This document shows, one piece after another, positions 2,238-29,886 of a stretch of 31,195 nt of DNA; the first letter of the stretch is position 1; each line of letters begins with the position of its first letter. The DNA is taken from the NCBI GenBank assembly GCA_002278985.1, contig NCJP01000003.1:1-31195 (forward strand), written 5' to 3'. The notes under the pieces were generated by a model. That model made no database searches, was not told where the DNA came from, and worked only from the letters and a program-made list of their open reading frames with translations. The translations under genes and the position numbers were made by a program. Source of the DNA: Erythrobacter sp. 34-65-8 (GTDB lineage Bacteria > Pseudomonadota > Alphaproteobacteria > Sphingomonadales > Sphingomonadaceae).

Positions 2238-3286
2238 CGGGCAACCAGTCCCCGCTGCTCCGCCATCCCCATCGAGACCAGCAGCGGCCCGGTACCGTCA
2301 GGACTGTCCTGCCGCGCCTTGAAATCCGCCTTGCTGCCCATCCCGCGCCAGTTTGCCAGGATCAGGGACTGCGCCACAGCCCCGCCCAGCGTGGTGCCAG
2401 GGCCGGTGACGATGAACAGGTCAGGCGCGAACTCGCGGGCGGCGACGGCGATGGTGCGGGTGAAATCATAGGTTTCGGTGACCTGCTGGCCCAGCGTGTA
2501 GCCCCGCAAGGCGGCCATATTGGTCGCGTGAGGCCACCAGATTGCGCCGCGACCGTCGACGAGCGGCACCCGCGGCTGCCCGAACAGCGATTCGGGCAAG
2601 GCTGCCCGCCCCCGCTCGGCGACGGGTCCCTGCAGTTGGGTGTGGAACGCGGCGTGGTTGCCCAGGCGCATCGGGAACCGGCCCTCGACCGGCTCCGCCT
2701 CGGTTTCGAATGCCTTGAGCCCGGTCTCGTTGCCTGCTAGCACCAGCATGCCCCCAAGGTTGATCGACAGGGCCAGTACGTGCCCCTCGCGTGCGTCGAT
2801 CTGCGCGACATGTTCGAGCAACGCCGCCTTGCGCGCGGGGTCCGGCACCCAGTCCGGCCCGAAAAAGGGATAGACCAGTTGCCCGCCGATCAGCGCCTGC
2901 TGCATCAGCGTGCCCATGGTGTTGGCAATGGTAAAGCCATCGGATGGCGTGATCGCCCCGGCGCAGGCGAGGGCGGAGTACCAGCCCATCGAATTGCCGG
3001 TCACCGCCACTACGTCGATCCGCTCGCGGTCGATTGAAAGGACATCGCCCAGCGTGGCGGCGAAGATCAGGCCGGAGGCGTTATCGCCGCGGGTGTGGCG
3101 GGCAAGGCTGAACCGTTCCGCCCCGTCGAGATCGCTGAGTGTATCCTGCCCCTGCGCAGCCCGCTCCGCATCGAATGCTGCCAGCAGGGCGGGGTCGGGG
3201 AAGTGTCGGCCGAGATAGCCCAGCTCGTCCTTGTTGTAGGTGCCGCGCCCGGGGCAGACCAGCACCGCTGTCTTGCGGCTGCTCAT
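2231..3286 (-). CDS. FabD-like acyltransferase (malonyltransferase fold)
   Basis: 351 residues with the acyl-CoA:ACP transacylase fold. The nucleophile elbow is GNSMG with Ser99 (the family has GHSxG), and the catalytic His is probably His215 in AAFHTQL. The N-terminal oxyanion segment reads PGRG instead of the usual PGQG. The helix that in FabD carries the malonate-binding Arg (RG..MQ) reads MGTLMQ here, so that Arg appears to be Met. This suggests an acyl donor other than malonyl-CoA; the step is inference from motif alignment by eye. The ATG overlaps the stop of the upstream E1 gene (ATGA), so the two are translationally coupled. A housekeeping fabD would normally sit beside fabG or acpP, which are absent here, so this is probably a specialised paralogue. 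Confidence 0.75.
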   Translation of the reverse strand: MSSRKTAVLVCPGRGTYNKDELGYLGRHFPDPALLAAFDAERAAQGQDTLSDLDGAERFSLARHTRGDNASGLIFAATLGDVLSIDRERIDVVAVTGNSMGWYSALACAGAITPSDGFTIANTMGTLMQQALIGGQLVYPFFGPDWVPDPARKAALLEHVAQIDAREGHVLALSINLGGMLVLAGNETGLKAFETEAEPVEGRFPMRLGNHAAFHTQLQGPVAERGRAALPESLFGQPRVPLVDGRGAIWWPHATNMAALRGYTLGQQVTETYDFTRTIAVAAREFAPDLFIVTGPGTTLGGAVAQSLILANWRGMGSKADFKARQDSPDGTGPLLVSMGMAEQRGLVARQ

Positions 3287-5472
3287 GACTTGCCCCCTGT
3301 TAGCGCCATGGCTGCGGCCACGATACTGTCGACCGAAGGCATGGTCGCGGCATAGGCCGGACCGGTCGGGATAAAGCTGTCCTCCGCCACATGGCGCGCG
3401 ACGGGCTTGTCGGTGCGTTCGGCCATCAGCGCCATCAGCGCTTCGGCCAGGCCGCCGGTGCGGCGGGTCTCGTCGACGATCAGCACTTTTTCTGCATCGC
3501 GCAGCGCCGTGACCAGCGCTTCCTCCGGCAAAGGGTTCAGCCAGTGCAGGTCGATCACCCGAGCCGCGATCCCCTGCGCTTCCAACCGCTTCTGAGCCTG
3601 CAATGACAGGTGCAGACCGTTGGCGTAGCTGACGATGGCCAGGTCACTGCCCGTGCCGTGGGTCGTCACCTGGCCGATGCCGATCCGTTCGGAAGGGTCC
3701 GGATAGTGCCGCAACCACGCGCCATCGCCTGGCTCATGCAGGTCGCGCATCGGATAGAGCGCGATCGGTTCAAGGAACACGACCAGCCGCTGCTCCTCGC
3801 GCGCCAGCCGCACGCATTCGCGCAGTAGCCTGGCAGCATCGGCACCGTTGGAAGGGCAGCACAGGATCACCCCGGGCACATCGCGCAGCGCGGCACAACT
3901 GTTGTCATTGTGGAAGTGCCCGCCGAACCCCTTCTGGTAGCCGAGGCCCGCAATCCGCAGCACCATCGGGTTGGTGAACTGGCCATTGGAGAAGAACGGC
4001 AGGGTCGCGCCTTCCCCCCGGATCTGGTCCTCGGCGTTGTGGTAATAGGCGAGGAACTGGATTTCCGGCACCGGAATCAGCCCGTTGTGCGCCATCCCCA
4101 GCGCCAGCCCGAGGATCGATTGCTCATCCAGCAGGGTATCGATCACCCGCGCCTTGCCGAACCGGGTGACCAGCTTCTGGGTCACGCCATAAACCCCGCC
4201 CTTGGCCCCGACATCCTCGCCCATCAGCGCGATCTCGCGGTGTTCGAGCATCAGGTCGGTCAGCGCCCAGTTGATGCACCGGCTCATGATCTGAGGTGAT
4301 TCCATCGCCTTGAGGTCCGGCCCGAACGCTTCGGCCCGCGCTTCGGCAGAGGGGCCGTTGCTCGGCGCATTGTTGCGGCGGGGCGGAACCAGACTCGCCA
4401 TCACCTCTTTCGCGGCCTTGAGGCGCGGGCGGGTGACGACCTCGGCGCGCGCCCGCTCGACCCGGGCCAGCGTCTCCTGGTAGATCGCCAGTGCTTGCTC
4501 GCGGTCCAGCGCGCCCGCCTCGCCAAGCAGGCGGACAGTGTGGAGCAGCGGATCGTTCGCCTCGTCCGCTTCGACCTCGGCCTTGGTCATGTAGGCGGTC
4601 TGGACGTCGGCGCCGGCGTGGCCATAGAGCCGCACCGTGCGGATGTGCAGGAAAGCGGGCTTGCGCCGCTTGCGAACATAGTCCGCCGCCTCGCGCGCGA
4701 CGCGATAGGTTTCATAGATGTCGAGGCCGTCGCAGGCGAAATATCCCAGGTCCGGGCGGCGGGAGAAGTTGGCCGCGATCCAGCCCGATGGGGTGCGGGT
4801 GGAAATGCCGATGCCGTTGTCCTCGCACACCCACAGCACTGGCATGGGCACCTTCTGGTATGCCGTCCAGCAGCTGGTATTGATCGCCCCCTGCGCGGTC
4901 GAATGGTTGGCGCTGGCATCGCCGAAGCTGCACACCACGATGGCATCGTCGGGCAAAATTGCGTGCTCGGGCCTTACCCGCTTGGCGAGGCCGATCGAGT
5001 AGGCCGCACCGACCGCCTTGGGCAGGTGGCTGGCGATGGTCGAGGTCTGCGGCGGAATGGTCAGCGCGCGAGAGCCCAGCACCTTGTGCCGCCCCCCGCT
5101 GATCGGATCATCGCTCGAACAGGCGAAGCTCAGCAGCATGTCCCACAGGATGGACTGGCCCGGTACCTGATTGGCGCGCTCGATCTGGAACGCGGCATCG
5201 CGGTAATGGAGGAAGGCCATGTCGGTCGGTCGCAGCGCAGCGGCGACTGCCGCCATCCCCTCGTGTCCGGAGGAGCCGATGGTGTAGAACCCCTCCCCCG
5301 CCGCCTGCATCTTGCGGCTCACGATATCGAGCGCCCGGGTCAGGCAACCGCTGCGGTAGAGCTGCACCGCCTGCTGTGCCTCCAGCGGCCCCAGCGGCGG
5401 CTGTCCTGAAGGCAAGCTCCCCCCTGCGACGTGGCGCAGGAAATTCTCGTGTACGATAACGCTCCGGTCCAT
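3283..5472 (-). CDS. 2-oxo acid dehydrogenase E1, alpha and beta fused
   Basis: About 729 residues from the ATG at 5472 (the open frame extends upstream to 5559, but that part looks non-coding). The N-terminal half is an E1 alpha domain with the thiamine diphosphate motif GDASANHS...AINTSCW...CEDNGIGIS. The C-terminal half is an E1 beta transketolase-type domain (ALMGEDVGAKGGVYGVT, LDEQSILGLALGMA, VPEIQFLAYYHNAEDQ) plus a C-terminal domain (VLIVDETRRTGGLAEAL). The family decarboxylates 2-oxo acids (branched-chain or pyruvate-like) and passes the acyl group to a lipoyl E2. No lipoyl domain, E2 or E3 is nearby; the partner gene is a FabD-like acyltransferase. The substrate is unknown; branched-chain 2-oxo acids are the most likely by resemblance. 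Confidence 0.85.
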   Translation of the reverse strand: MDRSVIVHENFLRHVAGGSLPSGQPPLGPLEAQQAVQLYRSGCLTRALDIVSRKMQAAGEGFYTIGSSGHEGMAAVAAALRPTDMAFLHYRDAAFQIERANQVPGQSILWDMLLSFACSSDDPISGGRHKVLGSRALTIPPQTSTIASHLPKAVGAAYSIGLAKRVRPEHAILPDDAIVVCSFGDASANHSTAQGAINTSCWTAYQKVPMPVLWVCEDNGIGISTRTPSGWIAANFSRRPDLGYFACDGLDIYETYRVAREAADYVRKRRKPAFLHIRTVRLYGHAGADVQTAYMTKAEVEADEANDPLLHTVRLLGEAGALDREQALAIYQETLARVERARAEVVTRPRLKAAKEVMASLVPPRRNNAPSNGPSAEARAEAFGPDLKAMESPQIMSRCINWALTDLMLEHREIALMGEDVGAKGGVYGVTQKLVTRFGKARVIDTLLDEQSILGLALGMAHNGLIPVPEIQFLAYYHNAEDQIRGEGATLPFFSNGQFTNPMVLRIAGLGYQKGFGGHFHNDNSCAALRDVPGVILCCPSNGADAARLLRECVRLAREEQRLVVFLEPIALYPMRDLHEPGDGAWLRHYPDPSERIGIGQVTTHGTGSDLAIVSYANGLHLSLQAQKRLEAQGIAARVIDLHWLNPLPEEALVTALRDAEKVLIVDETRRTGGLAEALMALMAERTDKPVARHVAEDSFIPTGPAYAATMPSVDSIVAAAMALTGGKS

Positions 5473-18694: not shown

Positions 18695-19924
18695 GTGTTC
18701 GAATTCATTCCCAAGATAGACCGCTACATCTTCCGCCTCGTGCTTTTGCCGATGCTCGGCGTGTTCGCGCTGGCCGCCTCCTTGCTGACACTCGACAAGA
18801 TGCTGCGTCTGTTCGACTTCGTCGCCGTCGAAGGCGGCCCGATCGGCGTGGTGTTCAAAATGCTCGGCGCGCTGGTGCCCGAATATGCCAGCCTGGCGAT
18901 CCCGCTCGGCCTGCTGCTCGGCATCCTGCTCGCCTTCCGCAAGCTCGCCACCAGCAGCGAGCTGGACGTGTTGCGGGCGGTGGGGCTGGGATACGGCCGA
19001 CTGCTTCGGGTGCCCTATGCAATCACGGCCGTGCTGATGCTGGTCAATGTGGCGCTGGTGTTCTTCGTCCAGCCGGTCAGCCGCTACTATTACGAGCAGC
19101 TCGATTACGAGCTTCGGTCCGGCGCCTTGGGAGCGTCGATCAAGGTGGGTGAATTCACCACCCTGAAGGACCGGATGGCGCTGCGGATCGATGCGAGCGA
19201 GGATGATGGCCGCCGCCTGCAGGGCATCTTCGCCCGCGTTGCCAACAGCAAGGGGCAGGTGCTGTCCATCTCCGCGCGCGAGGGCAGCTTCCTGGCGACC
19301 TTGGACAGCCCGGACACGATCATCCTGCGCCTCACCGAAGGTACCATCGTGCAGGATACCGGGGGCGAGGGCACAACGCCCCGGGTGCTCAGCTTCAGCC
19401 GGCACGACCTGCCAATAGACTTGCCGCGGATCGAGGAATTCCGCGCCCGGGGCGATGTCGAACGCGAATATATCCTGCCCGAACTCCTGCGGGTGGGCTG
19501 GAGCGCGGAGGTCACGCCTGACAAGCGCGCGGCGAGCCAGGCCAGCTTCAATTTCCGGCTGGTGGAAGTGGTGATGATGGCGCTGATGCCACTGCTGGCA
19601 GTGGCGCTGGCGATCCCGCCCAAGCGGTCGAGCAGTGCGCTCGGAGTGTTCGTCTCGATCGTGATGGTCGTCTCCTATCACAAGGTGAACCAGTATGCGG
19701 AGGATGTCGCCGCGCTCGGGCGGGTCGATCCGGTGATCGCCTTGTGGGTGCCGATGCTGCTGTTCGCGGCCCTCATCGTGTGGATGTACTACCGCGTTGC
19801 TCATGTGCCCGGCGGGCAGGCCATCGGCGCGCTCGAGGTGTGGTTCGCCAAGCTGGGCAAGCGGCTCAAGACGCTGTTCCGGCGCAGGGCTCGCGCTGGC
19901 TCTCGCCTGGCTCCGGCGGAATAA
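18695..19924 (+). CDS. lptF: LPS export permease LptF
   Basis: 409 residues from a GTG at 18695. The LptF/LptG (YjgP/YjgQ) family shows an N-terminal amphipathic helix and transmembrane helices near 13-33, 55-80 and 98-118. A periplasmic beta-jellyroll follows (about 130-270; FTTLKDRMALRIDASEDDGRRLQGIF), with three C-terminal helices after it. LptF pairs with LptG and the LptB ATPase to extract lipopolysaccharide from the inner membrane toward LptC/LptA. The C-terminus carries a basic extension (KLGKRLKTLFRRRARAGSR). It is 14 bases from lptG, so both are one operon. Confidence 0.92.
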   Translation: MFEFIPKIDRYIFRLVLLPMLGVFALAASLLTLDKMLRLFDFVAVEGGPIGVVFKMLGALVPEYASLAIPLGLLLGILLAFRKLATSSELDVLRAVGLGYGRLLRVPYAITAVLMLVNVALVFFVQPVSRYYYEQLDYELRSGALGASIKVGEFTTLKDRMALRIDASEDDGRRLQGIFARVANSKGQVLSISAREGSFLATLDSPDTIILRLTEGTIVQDTGGEGTTPRVLSFSRHDLPIDLPRIEEFRARGDVEREYILPELLRVGWSAEVTPDKRAASQASFNFRLVEVVMMALMPLLAVALAIPPKRSSSALGVFVSIVMVVSYHKVNQYAEDVAALGRVDPVIALWVPMLLFAALIVWMYYRVAHVPGGQAIGALEVWFAKLGKRLKTLFRRRARAGSRLAPAE

Positions 19925-19938
19925 GGCGCACCACGGAC

Positions 19939-21026
19939 ATGCAGCTGGATTTCTTTCCCTCTCGCACGCTGACGCTCTACCTGGCGCGCCTGTTCGTGTT
20001 GCGGATCATGGCCATGCTGGCCCTGCTGGTGCTGGTGCTGATGATGCTCGACCTGCTCGGCACGAGCGGCAAGATCATGGCGGTCGAGGGCAATGGCCAG
20101 GCCGAGCTGTGGCGCTATGTCTCCTTGCGGGTGCCGCAGCTGATCGCGCGGTTCCTGCCTTACTCGGTTCTTCTGGCCACGGTCATCACCCTGCTCGCGC
20201 TCAACCAGAACAGCGAGATCGTGGCGATGAAGGCGGCCGGAATGTCGGCGCATCAGGTACTTGCTCCTTTGTTCCTTGCCGCCGCGGCTGTTTCCCTGGC
20301 CAGTTTCGCCTTCAACGAACGGGTGGTCACGCGCGCCACCGCCACCCTGAAGGCCTGGGAAGGCGCTCAGTTCGGCCCGGTTCCGCAAGAGGTGGGCGCC
20401 CGCAGCAATGTCTATTTCGCCGACGGCAATGACGTGCTCAGTGCGGCAACGATGACCGGCTCAGGCGAGACAATGGCCCTGCAGGACGTGACGTTCTATC
20501 GCCGCACCGCCGCCGGTACGCTGACCGAGCAGTTCCGCGCTCCGCGGGCGACGTATGCTGCTCCGGGCTGGGAGCTGGTCGGGGCGGAACGCTTCGACGT
20601 AGCGGCCGCCCGTACCGACCGGGTCGAGCGGATCGTGGTGGGAGAAGGCTTGACGATCGAACAGATCGAGCTCGACAGCGTCGATCCCGATGCACCGCAT
20701 TGCGGGAATCGATCGAGGCCTATGAGCGCGTGGGCCGCCGGACCAGCGAGCTCGAGGCAAAGTGGTGGCACAAGCTGGCTGGCCCGCTGTCTGCCATGCT
20801 GATGCCCCTGCTTGGGGCGGTGGCGGCTTTCGGGCTGGCGCGTTCGGGCCAGTTGTTCGTCCGCGCGCTCATCGCGATGGCGCTGGGCTTTGCCTACTTC
20901 GTGGTCGACAACGCCGCTCTGGCGATGGGCAGCTTCGGGGGTTATCCTCCGCTCCTCGCGGCGTGGGCGCCCTTCTTCCTGTTCCTGCTGATCGGGGAAA
21001 CCGTGCTGGTTCGGACCGAAGAGTGA
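19939..21026 (+). pseudogene. lptG: LPS export permease LptG, interrupted by a frameshift
   Basis: The frame from ATG 19939 encodes LptG: helices near 12-35 and 60-85, SEIVAMKAAGMSAHQVLAPL, then the periplasmic domain. At about 20690-20702 the reading leaves the family sequence after DSVDPDAP and would end at 20802 with unrelated residues. The C-terminal part (ESIEAYERVGRRTSELEAKW, then LAGPLSAMLMPLLGAVAAF and two more helices) continues in the -1 frame to 21026. The shift fits a single missing base. LptG is normally essential for LPS export, so either the sequence has an error, another copy exists, or the cell tolerates or bypasses the shift. The stop overlaps the GTG of the next gene. Confidence 0.88.
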
Positions 21027-24136: not shown

Positions 24137-24161
24137 GGAACTTCCCCGCAGCCAGTGCGTT
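24137..24161 (+). promoter_or_regulatory. EcfG-type GSR promoter of phyR
   Basis: GGAAC (24137-24141), a 16-base spacer and CGTT (24158-24161) match the consensus of the alphaproteobacterial extracytoplasmic sigma factor EcfG. It lies 48 bases before the phyR start codon and indicates positive feedback by EcfG on phyR. Confidence 0.75.
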
Positions 24162-24209: not shown

Positions 24210-24328
24210 ATGCCGCTCGGAGACCAGGTTGCCGCAAATCTTCCGTTTTTGCGCCGCTATGCGCGCGCTCTCACCGGCTCGCAGGAAACAGGCGATGCCT
24301 TCGTCCGGCAGGTACTCGAAGCCGCGTT
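24210..24328 (+). pseudogene. phyR: phyR 5' fragment, cut by the IS
   Basis: The first 39 codons plus two bases of phyR, encoding the first helices of the sigma-like domain (VAANLPFLRRYARALTGSQE, then GDAFVRQVLEAA). An AGGGA precedes the ATG at 24210. Reading on into the IS adds seven foreign codons and stops at 24353, giving a 47-residue peptide. PhyR uses this EcfG-like domain, once its receiver is phosphorylated, to bind NepR and free EcfG. The fragment lacks nearly all of the NepR-binding surface and should be inactive. Confidence 0.93.
24321..24328 (+). repeat. Left target site duplication of the IS256 insertion
   Basis: GCCGCGTT directly precedes the left inverted repeat and recurs at 25757-25764 directly after the right one. 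Eight bases is normal for IS256-family transposition. Two more bases (GG) also match on both sides, so the exact border is ambiguous by up to 2 bases. Confidence 0.9.
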
Positions 24329-24365
24329 GGTCGTGTCCCGGTACGTGGTGTAGGTTCTGCCGGTA

Positions 24366-24424
24366 GCGAAGCTGACCGGACACGCGCTAATCGATAAAGC
24401 GCTGTAGTGTCCGGTCAGTTTCGC
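24366..24424 (+). repeat. Long inverted repeat at the left end of the IS
   Basis: An 18-base arm (24366-24383, GCGAAGCTGACCGGACAC) pairs with 24407-24424 at 17 of 18 positions. Inside it GCGCT (24384-24388) pairs with AGCGC (24398-24402). In RNA entering from phyR this would fold into a long hairpin just ahead of the transposase gene. Several ISs use such hairpins to block expression from outside promoters. Confidence 0.7.
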
Positions 24425-24487
24425 GGGTGGTCATCGGCGAACTTCGGTAAGCTTGGGTTGCAAACACTCAACTTACGGAGAACACCG

Positions 24488-25687
24488 ATGACCAAGGATC
24501 AGATGGACTTGAATGCGCTGGTTGGGAAGAGCGCCGATGGCGATTTTCTGCGCGACATGATCAGCTTTGCCGCGCAGCGCCTGATGGAACTGGAAGTGGG
24601 CGGCCTGACGGGTGCGGCCTATGGCGAGAAGGATAGCGAGCGGCTCGCGCAGCGTAACGGCTACCGCGACCGCGACTGGGAGACCCGTGCGGGCACGGTC
24701 GAGCTGAAGATCCCCAAGCTGCGCAAAGGCAGTTACTTTCCCTGCTTTCTCGAGCCTCGCCGGGTGGCGGAGAAGGCGCTGACCGCGGTCATTCAGGAAG
24801 CATATATCCAAGGCATATCGACCCGTTCGGTCGACGATCTGGTCAAGGCCATGGGGATGAGCGGCATCTCCAAGAGCCAGGTCAGCCGGCTGTGCGAGGA
24901 GATCGACGAGCGGGTGACGGCCTTCCTCGAGCGTCCGATCGAAGGCGACTGGCCCTATATCTGGATGGACGCGACCTACATAAAAGTCCGCCGCGCGGGC
25001 CGCATTGTCTCGGTCGCCGTCATCATCGCCGTCGGCGTCAACAGTGACGGTCGGCGCGAAGTGCTCGGCATGACGATCGGTCATTCCGAAGCCGAGGTGT
25101 TCTGGACCGAGTTCCTGCGCAGCCTTGCGCGTCGCGGTTTGCGCGGCGTGAAGCTGGTGATCTCCGATTCCCACGAGGGGATCAAAGCGGCCGTCGCCAA
25201 GGTGTTCTGCGCCACCTGGCAGCGCTGCCGCGTCCACTTCATGCGCAACGCGCAGGCCCATGCGGGCAAGAGTGGCCGCCGGGTCGTGTCGGCGTTCATC
25301 GGCACCGCCTTCGCGCAGGACACCGCCGAGGCGGCCAAGGCGCAGTGGCGCAGCGTTGCCGATCAGCTCAGGCCGACAGTGCCCAAGCTGGCGATCCTTA
25401 TGGACAGCGCCGAAGAAGACGTCCTGGCCTACATGACCTTCCCCGCGCAGCACCGCACCAAGTTGCACTCAAATAATCCGATCGAGCGACTCAATGGCGA
25501 AATCAAGCGGCGCACCGACGTCGTCGGCATCTTCCCCAACGAAGAAGCGATTACGCGCCTCGTCGGCGCCATCCTGCTGGAACAGAACGATGAATGGGCG
25601 GTCCAGCGTTGCCGCTACATGACCCTTGAGAGCGTCTCGGGATTAAGCGATAATGCCATCATCACGTTGCCCCCTATGGCAGCATGA
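24488..25687 (+). CDS. IS256-family DDE transposase
   Basis: 399 residues from the ATG at 24488, with CGGAG seven bases upstream; an in-frame ATG at 24407 lies within the inverted-repeat hairpin and has no such support. The catalytic triad is Asp161 ([12 protein letters not shown]), Asp227 (LVISDSHEG) and Glu333 ([14 protein letters not shown]). The CxxH-like insertion segment [11 protein letters not shown] and the N-terminal zinc-free helical region fit the mutator/IS256 family, and the length is normal. No frameshift was seen, so the enzyme is probably active. Confidence 0.95.
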
Positions 25688-25756
25688 TCAACCCGGCTTG
25701 GCCGGAGATCGCTAAGGCTACGCCGGCGAACCTACACCACCATATGGGACACGACC

Positions 25757-25764
25757 GCCGCGTT
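25757..25764 (+). repeat. Right target site duplication of the IS256 insertion
   Basis: GCCGCGTT, the exact copy of 24321-24328, directly follows the right inverted repeat and carries phyR codons 38-40 (the last one in part). Confidence 0.9.
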
Positions 25765-26437
25765 GGCCGATCCTGACCTGAAAGCCTCCTTCGCAGATGG
25801 TCGGGTGGCGCTCTATCGGGCGTTCAACAAGATCTGGTCAGGTGCGCGGCTGGAAGCGGTCGGGAGCAGCGAGCCCGCCGGGATGCACGAGGGCGCCGTC
25901 CAGGAACGCCTTCTCGCGGTAACCCCGTTGGCCCGTCAGGCGCTGCTGCTGACGACGCTCGAAGATTTCTCCAATGCCGAAACCGCCGAGATTCTCGATC
26001 TGGACGAAGACGAGGTAGCGCGGCTGGTGCGGGAAGCCGTCTCCGACATCGATCGGGAAAGCGCGACGACCGTGCTGATCATCGAGGACGAGCCGCTGAT
26101 TGCAATGCAGCTGGAGGACCTGGTGGCAGCACTGGGCCATGAAGTGTGCGGCACGGCTGCCACCCGGACCCAGGCCCAGTCGGTCTTTGCACGGACCACC
26201 CCTGGCCTGGTGCTGGCGGACATCCAGCTGGCCGATGGGTCGAGCGGGCTTGATGCAGTGGACGACATTCTCGCCACCACCAGCGTGCCGGTCATCTTCA
26301 TCACTGCCTATCCCGAACGGCTGCTGACCGGGGATCGGCCTGAGCCGACCTATCTGGTCACCAAGCCGTTTCGCGAAGCAACCGTGCGTGCGGCCATCAG
26401 CCAGGCATTGTTCTTCAATTCCACTCGGCCGCTGTAG
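25757..26437 (+). pseudogene. phyR: phyR 3' fragment: rest of sigma-like domain plus receiver domain
   Basis: This part encodes residues 38-263 of the reconstructed PhyR. Residues about 40-135 are the remaining sigma-like domain (LYRAFNKIWSG; TPLARQALLLTTLEDFSNAE; AEILDLDEDEVARLVREAV). Residues about 142-258 are the receiver domain: acidic pair in IIEDEP, phosphoacceptor Asp192 in VLADIQLADGSSG, Thr in FITAYPERL and Lys in LVTKPF. A TTG at 25763 gives a 224-residue open frame, but no ribosome binding site is evident in the IS end, so translation is doubtful. Without the first helices the product should not sequester NepR properly. Confidence 0.93.
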
Positions 26438-26534: not shown

Positions 26535-28220
26535 TTACTGCGTCCGGTAACGGTACCGCAGTGCGAAGTCGCTCGGCTTGCGCACCGGAATCAGCATGAC
26601 GCAACGGACGCCGTCCGCTGCGAATTCGATTTCAACTGGCTGGCCCAGTTCATGGGCCACGATGCGCTCGATGAGATGAAGCCCGAAACCGCGCTGCCGC
26701 TCCGGCTTGACCGGCGGTCCGCCGTGTTCCTGCCAGGTTACCCGGACAAGCTTGTCGCTGACCAGGTCCCAGTGAACCGTGACATTTCCGCCGTGCACGC
26801 TGAGGGCCCCATAGCGCCCGGCATTTGTGCCAAGCTCGTGCACGGCCAGGCCGAACGACAGCGCGTCGTTCGGGGCCAGTTGGACCGGCGGACCACTGAG
26901 TTCGATGATCCGGTCATCCTGAGCGAGATAGGGCGCCAGTTCCGCCTCGACCACGTCGCGCAATGGCGTGGTTCCCCATTCGGACCGGGTGAGCAGGTCA
27001 TGGGTGGCCGACAATGCGCGGATCCGGCCATCCAGCCCGTCCGCAAACTCGTCGACCCGATCGGTCCGGTTCCGTGTCAGGGCAATGATCGACAGAACAT
27101 TGGCCAAGGTATTCTTGACGCGATGGTTGAGCTCGCGCGTCAGCGACTCCCGGATGGAATCCTGTTCCTGCAACCATTCGAGGGCGGCCCGGTCTTCATT
27201 GGCCTGGCGCGTGAGCAGCCGGAGCAGGGCCAGCATCAGGCTGGCTACCAGGAGCCCGAACGCCAGCGTCAGCACACCCATGTTCGACAGCCCGGCACCC
27301 CCGGACGATTCCAGCTGCAGGATCATCTGGTGGTTGGAGAAATTCACCGGCTGGGACACCGAAATGCCACCGGCCGCCGTGCTGCCCATCTGCGCGAGAA
27401 GGTTCTCCTCGTCGGGAGCACCGTCATAGAGGCTGATCCTCTGGCCGTAGTCAGGGGGCAGCTGGATTGTTGACGTAAGGAAGTCGCCGGCGTTGAAAGG
27501 ACTGAAGATAAAGCCCTTGAGCCGCCGTGTGGGGCCAAGACCCTCGAAAACCGGCATGTAGATCAGAAAGCCGGGTTGGTCGCTTCGCCCTTCCTGGACG
27601 AGCACGACCCGCCCGGTTGCAGTAGGGCGGACGCTCCGCTCCGCCTCATCCATGGCCGCGCGCCGCGCCGATTCGGAATACATGTCGAACCCCAGCGCCC
27701 GCTGGTTCCGCTCGGTATTGGGGTGAAGGTAGGTTATCGGAACGATCCGGTTGCCGCCGAGCAGAGGGCGCGGCGTGACCCGCAAGGGGGTGCCCAACTC
27801 CTCGCTCAAGGCAGTTTCGAATGCATCAATCTGCATCCGCGTGATGCCTCGCGCCCAGCCGATGCCCTCTGCGCCCAGATACTGGCTGTTGATCCGCAGT
27901 TCGTCGACGAAGGCGCCAAATTCCTCGCGGCTCAGGTCGCCATGGACGACAAACAGCGCCGCGCCCGCGCGCAGATAGGCCGCCGCGCCATCGCCCCGCC
28001 GCTCGATCGCCGAACCGATGGCCTGCGCTTCCTTGCGCAGCTCGGCCATGCTGCGTTCGCGCTCCCCGGCTTCGATGGCAAACACGCTCAGGAGCGTAAT
28101 TGCCAGAACCAGCAGGAAGACAGCAAGCGGGACGGCCCTGGGAAAATCGGTCAGCCAACGCTGAATTCCGCCCCGCCGCGATCCGCTTTCGCGATTGCTG
28201 TCTGGCGTTGCAGTCAACAT
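26535..28220 (-). CDS. CHASE-domain HWE-type sensor histidine kinase of the GSR
   Basis: 561 residues from the ATG at 28220. TM1 is about 30-50; a periplasmic CHASE domain (about 70-290, with FGAFVDELRINSQYLGAEGIGWARGI and GFDMYSESARRAAMDEA) follows; TM2 is about 312-336. The HisKA_2/HWE kinase core has phospho-accepting His366 in TRELNHRVKN, an N-box HELGTNAGRYGAL, the WxE signature (WQE, 496-498) and GFGLHLIERIV. CHASE domains sense small ligands outside the cell membrane. Kinases of this group (PhyK and Pak types) phosphorylate PhyR. The gene is divergent from nepR and shares a palindromic EcfG promoter. With phyR broken its cognate partner is missing. Confidence 0.9.
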   Translation of the reverse strand: MLTATPDSNRESGSRRGGIQRWLTDFPRAVPLAVFLLVLAITLLSVFAIEAGERERSMAELRKEAQAIGSAIERRGDGAAAYLRAGAALFVVHGDLSREEFGAFVDELRINSQYLGAEGIGWARGITRMQIDAFETALSEELGTPLRVTPRPLLGGNRIVPITYLHPNTERNQRALGFDMYSESARRAAMDEAERSVRPTATGRVVLVQEGRSDQPGFLIYMPVFEGLGPTRRLKGFIFSPFNAGDFLTSTIQLPPDYGQRISLYDGAPDEENLLAQMGSTAAGGISVSQPVNFSNHQMILQLESSGGAGLSNMGVLTLAFGLLVASLMLALLRLLTRQANEDRAALEWLQEQDSIRESLTRELNHRVKNTLANVLSIIALTRNRTDRVDEFADGLDGRIRALSATHDLLTRSEWGTTPLRDVVEAELAPYLAQDDRIIELSGPPVQLAPNDALSFGLAVHELGTNAGRYGALSVHGGNVTVHWDLVSDKLVRVTWQEHGGPPVKPERQRGFGLHLIERIVAHELGQPVEIEFAADGVRCVMLIPVRKPSDFALRYRYRTQ

Positions 28221-28256: not shown

Positions 28257-28283
28257 GGAACCATGTCCGGTCGACATCGTTCC
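28257..28283. promoter_or_regulatory. Palindromic divergent EcfG promoter (kinase / nepR-ecfG)
   Basis: Plus strand: GGAAC (28257-28261), 16 bases, CGTT (28278-28281), a perfect EcfG match 77 bases before nepR. Minus strand: GGAAC (28283-28279), 16 bases, GGTT (28262-28259), one mismatch from consensus, 38 bases before the kinase start. The 27-bp block is nearly its own reverse complement, so one site can serve both directions. Confidence 0.75.
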
Positions 28284-28358: not shown

Positions 28359-28565
28359 ATGGCAACGCAGAATTTCAGTAATGGCAAGCCTCATCCCGGC
28401 ATGATCGGAGCGGGCAACTCAGGGCGGGATTCACCGCCGCAGACGAAGGCAAAGGAAGGCCCTGAATGGGCGGATGGCCTGCGCAAGCTCTATGATTCGG
28501 TCGTCGAAGAGCCCCTCCCCGACAGTTTCCGGGACCTGCTCGACAAGCTTGATCGAAGCGCCTGA
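28359..28565 (+). CDS. nepR: Anti-sigma factor NepR
   Basis: 68 residues from the ATG at 28359 (an in-frame ATG at codon 15 is also possible; neither has a strong ribosome site). The C-terminal half matches NepR: EWADGLRKLYDSVVEEPLPDSFRDLLDKLD, with the EPLPDSF-x(2)-LL core that contacts EcfG and PhyR. The first 35 residues are polar and probably disordered. NepR binds EcfG in unstressed cells and is titrated by phosphorylated PhyR. Its TGA overlaps the ecfG ATG by one base, which keeps the sigma and anti-sigma factors in balance. Confidence 0.92.
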   Translation: MATQNFSNGKPHPGMIGAGNSGRDSPPQTKAKEGPEWADGLRKLYDSVVEEPLPDSFRDLLDKLDRSA

Positions 28566-29176
28566 TGGCCGTTCATGACCTGACCCAGGCCGACAGGGCG
28601 GCCTTCAAGCGCGAATTGGGGGAAGTGATTCCCCACCTGCGCGCTTTTGCGCGGGGCCTGTGCGGCAGGCCGGACATGGCTGACGATCTGGTGCAGGAAA
28701 CCATGCTGAAAGCCTGGGCGGCGCAGGACCGGTTCGAACCCGGCACCTCCATGCGCGCCTGGACTTTCGTCATTCTGCGCAATGCCTACCTGACCGAGAT
28801 GCGCCGCAACCGCTTTCGCGGCGAATACGATGAAGTGCAGGCAGAGCGCATCCTGGTGACGTCCGCCACGCAGGAAGAACCGCTCCATCTGTCAGACATG
28901 CGGCGCGCGCTGATGTCGCTGCCCGATGAACGGCGCGAAGCGCTCCTGCTGGTCGGGGCTGGCGGCTTCAGTTACGAAGAAGCGGCGCAGATCTGCGAAT
29001 GCCCGGTGGGCACGATCAAGAGCCGGGTGGGCCGTGCCCGCGCCGCGCTCACTGCCATGCTTGATGACGGCCAGATGCCCGATGGAGATGGCGAGCCGGC
29101 CGAGAATGCCCATGCTGCCATCCTCCACGAACTGGAACGGCTGACCCGGCCCAAACCGGCGGCAGCTCTTTCCTGA
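28565..29176 (+). CDS. ecfG: ECF sigma factor EcfG (general stress response)
   Basis: 203 residues. Region 2 (about 20-85) has MADDLVQETMLKAWAAQDRF and MRAWTFVILRNAYLTEMRRNRFRG. Region 4 (about 110-165) has LPDERREALLLVGAGGFSYEEAAQICECPVGTIKSRVGRARAAL with its HTH. The adjacent nepR and PhyR genes and the EcfG-type promoters identify it as the ECF15 (EcfG) group rather than a generic ECF factor. A C-terminal tail of about 35 residues after region 4 is present. It directs transcription of stress genes and of its own operon. Confidence 0.93.
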   Translation: MAVHDLTQADRAAFKRELGEVIPHLRAFARGLCGRPDMADDLVQETMLKAWAAQDRFEPGTSMRAWTFVILRNAYLTEMRRNRFRGEYDEVQAERILVTSATQEEPLHLSDMRRALMSLPDERREALLLVGAGGFSYEEAAQICECPVGTIKSRVGRARAALTAMLDDGQMPDGDGEPAENAHAAILHELERLTRPKPAAALS

Positions 29177-29274: not shown

Positions 29275-29886
29275 TCAGGCCGGATAGGTCCAGGCTGTCC
29301 CGCGCGCGAGGTTCTCCGACGCGAAGGCCCAGTTGAGCTTCCCGCCGATAACCGCGTCGAGATAGGCTGGGCGCTTGTTCTGGTGGTCGAGGTAGTAGGC
29401 GTGTTCCCACAGGTCGATCACCAGCAGCGGGTTGAACCCGATGTCTGCCAGCGTGTCACCATCATGGGTTTCCTCGATCGACAGTGCGCCGTCCTTTTCC
29501 GCCAGCCATACCCAGCCGCTGGCGAAGTGGCCGACGCCCCGGTCAGCCAGTTGCTTGGCGAGCGCATCGTGCGATCCGAACGCGCTGTCGATCATCGCGG
29601 CCAGCTCGTCCGACGGGGTGCCACTTTCGGGTGACAGCGAATGCCAGAAGAAGCCGTGGTTCCAGCTCTGTGCGGCATTGTTGAACAGTCCCTGGTTGCT
29701 GCCGCGGGCGGCCACGATCACCTCTTCGAGCGACTTGCCGGCAAGGTCGGTGCCTTCAATCGCGGCGTTGGTCTTGTCGATATAGGCCTGGTGATGCTTG
29801 CCGTGGTGATACGAGAACGTCTCTGCCGAAATGGCAGGTTCCAGGGCGTCAGCGGCATAGGGCAGGTCGATCAGGGAGAAAGGCAT
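29275..29886 (-). CDS. sodB: Iron superoxide dismutase
   Basis: 203 residues, cytoplasmic (no signal peptide). The enzyme dismutates superoxide to H2O2 and O2. Metal ligands are His27-region (FSYHHGKHHQAYI), His in AAQSWNHGFFW, and Asp and His in VIDLWEHAYYLD. The Gln in NNAAQSWNH and the AS-GWVWL segment favour the Fe type over Mn, but cambialistic behaviour cannot be excluded. Start at ATG 29886, with CAGGAG six bases upstream. The position next to ecfG is suggestive, but no EcfG-type promoter was seen before it. Confidence 0.93.
   Translation of the reverse strand: MPFSLIDLPYAADALEPAISAETFSYHHGKHHQAYIDKTNAAIEGTDLAGKSLEEVIVAARGSNQGLFNNAAQSWNHGFFWHSLSPESGTPSDELAAMIDSAFGSHDALAKQLADRGVGHFASGWVWLAEKDGALSIEETHDGDTLADIGFNPLLVIDLWEHAYYLDHQNKRPAYLDAVIGGKLNWAFASENLARGTAWTYPA

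Follow-up and report, generated by a model that had tools for sequence, protein, structure and literature searches.

An IS256-family insertion sequence (IS) splits phyR at codon 40 in the DNA analysed here. We consider it very probable that an acquired element of this family hit codon 40 of the only known phyR of its host, a relative of Erythrobacter, very recently, with the consequence that PhyR would be lost, EcfG would be held and the general stress response could not be induced, making the locus an early case of a recurring loss of the module. The window, i.e., the whole 31,195-nucleotide stretch of DNA that was analysed, comprises bases 1-31195 of contig C90 of host genome G000 (1,998,282 bp in 422 contigs; completeness 70.46, contamination 1.5).

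The phyR gene starts at position 24210 and, after the interruption, resumes in frame at 25757 and reaches its stop codon at 26437. The interrupting IS is complete-looking, 1428 bp long (24329-25756, plus strand, with ends assigned by homology), and flanked on both sides by an 8-bp target-site duplication: GCCGCGTT occupies 24321-24328 and is repeated exactly at 25757-25764 (both on the plus strand), while the corresponding site in G078, a genome of the same species, contains a single copy. With equal base frequencies, an exact repeat of 8 bp would arise by chance at fixed ends once in 65,536 cases, and the ends of the IS are fixed independently of the duplication by a plasmid relative that aligns with IS positions 1-1426. 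The arrangement given in the preliminary description (a phyR piece, the duplication, a 1428-bp IS, the second duplication, and phyR codons 38-263 in frame) is confirmed by the sequence and by domain matches, except for the end of the left piece, which had been placed at codon 39; codon 40 is completed by the first IS base, and the left piece therefore encodes 40 PhyR residues followed by 7 IS-coded residues and a stop.

A complete PhyR combines sigma2-like, sigma4-like and receiver domains in one protein, as does the PhyR of G078 (P0001), and in the window these domains are split over two pieces. The 5' piece (24210-24328, plus strand; codons 1-40 when the first IS base is included) matches PhyR_sigma2 (PF22029) with 63.3 bits (cut-off 27), over profile positions 1-34 of 55 only. 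The 3' piece (25757-26437, plus strand; codons 38-263 and the stop) matches PhyR_sigma-like (PF22233, 75.1 bits), Response_reg (45.4 bits) and the PhyR family NF006623 (291.4 bits, cut-off 240). Compared piecewise with P0001, residues 1-40 are identical, as are 225 of the 226 residues from codon 38 onward. Counted by hand, Asp192, which we take to be the receiver phosphoacceptor of the window PhyR, falls in the right piece, at the place previously assigned to it and within a stretch that aligns with solved PhyR chains. For Sphingomonas melonis PhyR, a passage of PMC5898713 gives Asp-194. The closest named PhyR proteins, from Pelagerythrobacter aerophilus and Pseudopontixanthobacter vadosimaris, are 78-79% identical, in a search that may omit records very near the window genome.

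The assignment of the element to the IS256 family is based on three features: a Mutator/IS256-type transposase, terminal inverted repeats, and a target duplication of 8 bp. Duplications in this family are 8 to 9 bp in size. The transposase gene (24488-25687, plus strand) is open and encodes 399 aa that match NF033543 (IS256) with 347.2 bits (cut-off 150) and PF00872 with 409.7 bits (cut-off 21). The matching ends reported earlier correspond to terminal inverted repeats that agree at 24 of the 30 terminal bases. One full copy of the IS was found in G000 by DNA comparison, and the candidates scored (40 of 88) yielded nothing further beyond a self-match of the leader palindrome; by protein, one IS256-type transposase was found. 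Neither G078 nor the sister species G001 contains an IS256-type transposase at E <= 1e-20. Elsewhere, the IS has relatives rather than near-identical copies. With two candidates scored per genome, 16 of 249 genomes of the host's family (G000 included) matched at E <= 1e-100, and the best matches apart from the host reached 78-79% over near full length or 81% over one third. The best match in a plasmid collection (86.1%, full-length) is on conjugative pSES220 of Sphingobium yanoikuyae, and a copy from Sphingomonas naphthae is 79.1% identical, also over the full length. The closest known elements are thus IS256-family elements of sphingomonad and rhizobial plasmids, and the identity bands above 90% contained no plasmid record. 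Together these comparisons suggest that the IS most likely came from outside, by horizontal acquisition.

G078 also allows the insertion to be placed in time. This closed genome (one contig, 3,238,348 bp) has an intact phyR of 263 aa that differs by one residue from the window pieces, and the sequences flanking the IS are 99.34% identical over 24,343 bp on the left and 99.815% identical over 5,411 bp on the right. Because G078 combines an intact phyR, a single target copy and near-identical flanks with the lack of an IS256 transposase, the IS most likely landed after the G000 and G078 strains split, which would be very recent when measured against the history of the species. The empty site in a closed conspecific genome thus bears out the suggestion in the preliminary description that the event was recent. 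That description had also raised relaxed selection in the strain and a laboratory origin, and neither idea gains support: the right flank differs from G078 at 10 positions, and polarising these with G001 assigns 3 derived states to the window, each within the kinase gene, and 5 to G078, with 2 left unpolarised, and the host genome is a fragmented, partial assembly. Decay of the neighbouring stress genes since the insertion was considered and rejected, as 3 derived changes in the window against 5 in G078 show no sign of it.

Three other differences from G078 were seen in the window. Positions 3000-3999 contain 89 mismatches in 1 kb, compared with 0-9 per kb elsewhere in the left flank, and are likely a recombined tract. 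An lptG-like gene (named by eye) at about 19800-21026, 3.5 kb upstream, has a 10-bp deletion (gap at 20695) that shifts its frame, which may be a real loss or an assembly error. The last 28 bases of the contig (31168-31195) are unmatched in G078, although the sequence preceding them matches, and are probably a contig-end artefact.

Whether faulty assembly or binning produced the insertion itself, or whether it is a minority allele in a mixed population, has to be weighed against this background. G000 is fragmented and 70% complete, and both the lptG-like deletion and the unmatched contig end would fit a faulty assembly. However, an exact 8-bp duplication and complete IS ends at both junctions are not expected from a misjoin, the two flanks represent one locus in the order found in G078 with over 99% identity, and the IS was found only once in the assembly, so that collapse of a repeat does not need to be invoked. 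We therefore regard an artefact as improbable.

The rest of the locus is that of a general stress response, with nepR adjoining ecfG, an HWE kinase close by, and the same order in G001. The CHASE-domain HWE histidine kinase gene (26535-28220, minus strand) is open, its product matches PF03924 (148.7 bits) and PF07536 (HWE_HK, 92.4 bits), and it differs from that of G078 by 2 amino-acid changes. Beyond it lie nepR (28359-28565, plus strand; 68 aa; PF18557 59.4 bits, cut-off 25.7) and ecfG (28565-29176, plus strand), whose 203-aa product is identical to that of G078 and matches Sigma70_r2 (59.4 bits) and Sigma70_r4_2 (55.5 bits). The best NCBIfam equivalog score of ecfG is 180.8 of the 321 bits set as cut-off, and its name therefore rests on domains, place and motif. 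As described earlier, the locus apart from phyR appears intact, with all three of these genes open. The EcfG-type promoter motif GGAAC-N16-CGTT, a consensus given for a sphingomonad in a passage of PMC7083833, occurs on the plus strand upstream of both phyR (24137-24161) and nepR-ecfG (28257-28281). With a spacer of N15-18, the pattern occurs 4 times in the window, where 0.69 occurrences are expected and none of 100 shuffles gives as many as 4; 2 of these matches are inside genes. One match with an N18 spacer, on the minus strand at 29816-29842, lies within the early part of a superoxide dismutase-like gene (named by eye) and is probably due to chance.

The likeliest reading of this arrangement is that PhyR function is lost and EcfG stays bound by NepR. 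A horizontally acquired IS256-family element would have jumped into the only known phyR, at codon 40; PhyR would be lost because the left piece is 40 residues long and most of the sigma2-like half is missing from the right piece, and NepR would then keep EcfG bound. According to a passage of PMC4598750, the PhyR-NepR complex superimposes on a complex whose anti-sigma factor wraps around sigma2 as well as sigma4. Since EcfG-type motifs precede both phyR and nepR-ecfG, these promoters would also lose their feedback and the positive loop should fall silent, leaving the insertion strain unable to induce the general stress response. The closest experimental counterparts are phyR deletion mutants of S. 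melonis Fr1 and Methylobacterium extorquens AM1, in which PhyR is likewise absent while NepR and EcfG are present, and which lose the EcfG regulon or stress resistance (passages of PMC6599016 and PMC4814048). In S. melonis, deletion of phyR changes 304 genes and deletion of ecfG 301, with 282 in common (passage of PMC6599016). The window differs from these laboratory deletions in that the loss would be due to a natural IS and is known here from sequence alone. What stands of the earlier interpretation is the loss of PhyR function, as the likeliest outcome, in a recent event that left open neighbours; the laboratory strain and the relaxed selection do not.

The insertion could also have been favoured by selection because it suppresses a response that had become lethally over-active, for instance through damage elsewhere to a negative regulator of the PhyT type. 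Among the genes on the contig that were examined, nepR and the neighbouring kinase gene are open, and we consider such a history quite improbable.

A reversible off switch, in which precise excision of the IS restores phyR and the stress response phase-varies, is very unlikely. IS256 itself is known for precise excision and phase variation, and a complete element with perfect duplications could, in principle, excise. No excised copy was seen in G000, however, one copy at one site shows no switching, and the empty conspecific site would be expected without any reversal.

A further alternative is that a promoter in the IS drives expression of the right piece, yielding a PhyR with a shortened N-terminus that is still active or always on. 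A predicted sigma70-like promoter (TTGAGA-17-GATAAT, 10 of 12 positions) at 25626-25654 does face phyR (1 found, 0.4 expected), and a 224-aa ORF begins with TTG at 25763. That TTG is the first usual in-frame start after the upstream stop (no ATG, GTG, TTG, CTG, ATT or ATC occurs in frame between them), and the ORF lacks the first 39 PhyR residues. The promoter motif is inside the transposase coding sequence and, at the same threshold, was not found in the S. yanoikuyae and S. naphthae copies of the IS, although a 9-of-12 site is present in the copy of Sphingobium YC-XJ3. Given the sole usual start at TTG 25763 and the missing motif in the S. yanoikuyae and S. naphthae copies, an active shortened PhyR is possible but unlikely. 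Over-activation is, moreover, lethal in S. melonis without PhyT (passage of PMC5898713), and overall we give the shortened protein only a very slim chance.

Least probable of all is that another phyR in the missing 30% of the genome keeps the response working: G000 is 70% complete, some relatives (G032, G042 and G254) have two PhyR matches in long frames, and Sphingopyxis granuli has two phyR genes (passage of PMC7083833), but the second intact phyR that would have overturned the preliminary description was not found in a search of the 70%-complete G000, the closed G078 has one PhyR (its other match being a receiver match in a 131-aa frame, 3.3e-16), and each of the 19 genomes whose match reaches 68% identity or more, G000 among them, shows just one match at E <= 1e-15.

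If PhyR has been lost, as we believe, the window would represent an early case in a repeated pattern of loss of the whole PhyR-NepR-EcfG module in the host's family. We surveyed 249 genomes of this family for PhyR (E <= 1e-10) and EcfG (E <= 1e-30), with 5 PhyR-negative and 8 EcfG-negative genomes identified by elimination. PhyR was found in 224 genomes and EcfG in 221; both were present in 220 (G000 included) and neither in 24, whereas four genomes (G114, G183, G190 and G246; 66, 67, 84 and 94% complete) had PhyR only and one (G019; 85% complete) EcfG only. The two proteins thus co-occur (Fisher p 3e-28, uncorrected for relatedness). Restricting the survey to genomes with a completeness of 90% or more and a contamination of 5% or less left 236, of which 214 had PhyR and 213 had EcfG. 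NepR, searched for in 37 chosen genomes that included all 24 double negatives, was found in 10; 23 of the double negatives had none and the other, G145, had a weak match. This search misses some NepR proteins, because none was found in G244 although PhyR and EcfG are present there. PhyR is both present and absent within eight genera (g4, g21, g35, g41, g91, g92, g112 and g119), counting absences only in genomes at least 92% complete; in some of these genera the pattern may reflect gain rather than loss.

All 224 PhyR-bearing genomes (150 + 74) were inspected by their best match row, and, besides G000, two have a broken sole phyR. In G222 (100% complete, 8 contigs), a TAA replaces codon 37, beside an open ecfG frame and a NepR match; no stop was flagged in the phyR of the genomes with the nearest EcfG (G290, G168 and G305; 92-94%). 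In G081 (99% complete), the sole genome of its genus in the set, phyR is frameshifted near codon 30 and the ecfG frame is open, and no NepR was found near the locus by tblastn. Both breaks may be sequencing errors. G019 follows the gene order of the window, except that phyR and the kinase gene are missing between the conserved upstream gene and nepR-ecfG, as though excised (L146; G019:C40, 4914-5194). We considered whether this is a lineage with phyR at another locus, like G009, G045 and G195, and rejected the idea since those genomes keep the kinase gene beside nepR-ecfG and G019 does not; a relocated phyR is still possible in this 85%-complete genome. Other candidates were set aside: the apparent internal stop of G183 lies in a match that aligns in one piece over residues 1-258, the phyR matches of G023 and G236 are cut by contig ends, and those of G133 and G194 are divergent but open.

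Genus g91 (45 genomes) shows a different order of events. PhyR was found in 20 of its genomes and EcfG in 16, and all 16 with EcfG, including G222, have a near-full-length PhyR match. The other four PhyR genomes have no EcfG at E <= 1e-25: what remains of PhyR in G281, G307 and G317 is its later part, encoded in short frames of 142, 183 and 184 aa, and in G316 the match spans residues 15-257 in a 260-aa frame. These loci (L163 in G281, L162 in G307, L161 in G317 and L164 in G316) may be PhyR remnants or reused receivers. PhyR is therefore not always the first to go, because in g91 it or a remnant of it outlives EcfG. The family survey fits repeated erosion of the PhyR-NepR-EcfG module, perhaps with the switch going first, a reading that draws on the IS in the window, the nonsense codon in G222, the frameshift in G081 and the deletion that includes the kinase gene in G019. 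Tentatively, then, the general stress response may turn over as a unit in this family, with decay often starting at phyR and soon followed by loss of the silenced EcfG-NepR pair; the window would show this process at one of its earliest stages, dated by a near-identical intact strain. We would not yet call this general scheme probable.

An IS that knocks out a regulator of the general stress response is a known kind of event, for which the nearest parallel is the loss of rpoS in natural and evolved Escherichia coli, where a master regulator of the general stress response is likewise lost. Non-functional rpoS alleles of E. coli are favoured in nutrient-poor environments (passage of PMC2744996). 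E. coli differs from the window in the regulator and in its class, and in the host's family many genomes lack the whole module as well; the case in the window, in addition, has been read from DNA only. Among the matches listed by searches of open-licence PubMed Central, no title or beginning of an abstract described an IS in a natural phyR, a weak negative because only that collection was covered, and the phyR passages of PMC5023240, PMC4827201 and PMC11218460 mention none. The insertion thus has the look of a stress response that was lost naturally and very recently. The fresh break in phyR and the intact partner of the same species form a matched pair for asking when a stress response costs more than it protects, and the 24 of 249 family genomes with neither PhyR nor EcfG, together with presence and absence inside eight genera, provide the context for this pair.

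The leader of the IS is predicted to fold into two hairpins on the plus strand, at 24366-24424 and 24428-24494, the second of which pairs over the transposase start codon. Several IS elements are known to keep their start codon hidden in transcripts that enter from flanking DNA. The predicted fold has a z-score of -6.57, with 0 of 200 shuffles as stable. Of the 58 pairs predicted for the whole leader, 13 have undergone a compensatory change in one or more of 5 related IS copies; the covariation term is small (-0.71 of -72.81 kcal/mol) and some pairs are broken in some copies. A hairpin over the start codon would allow the IS to reside behind a strong promoter without over-production of transposase.
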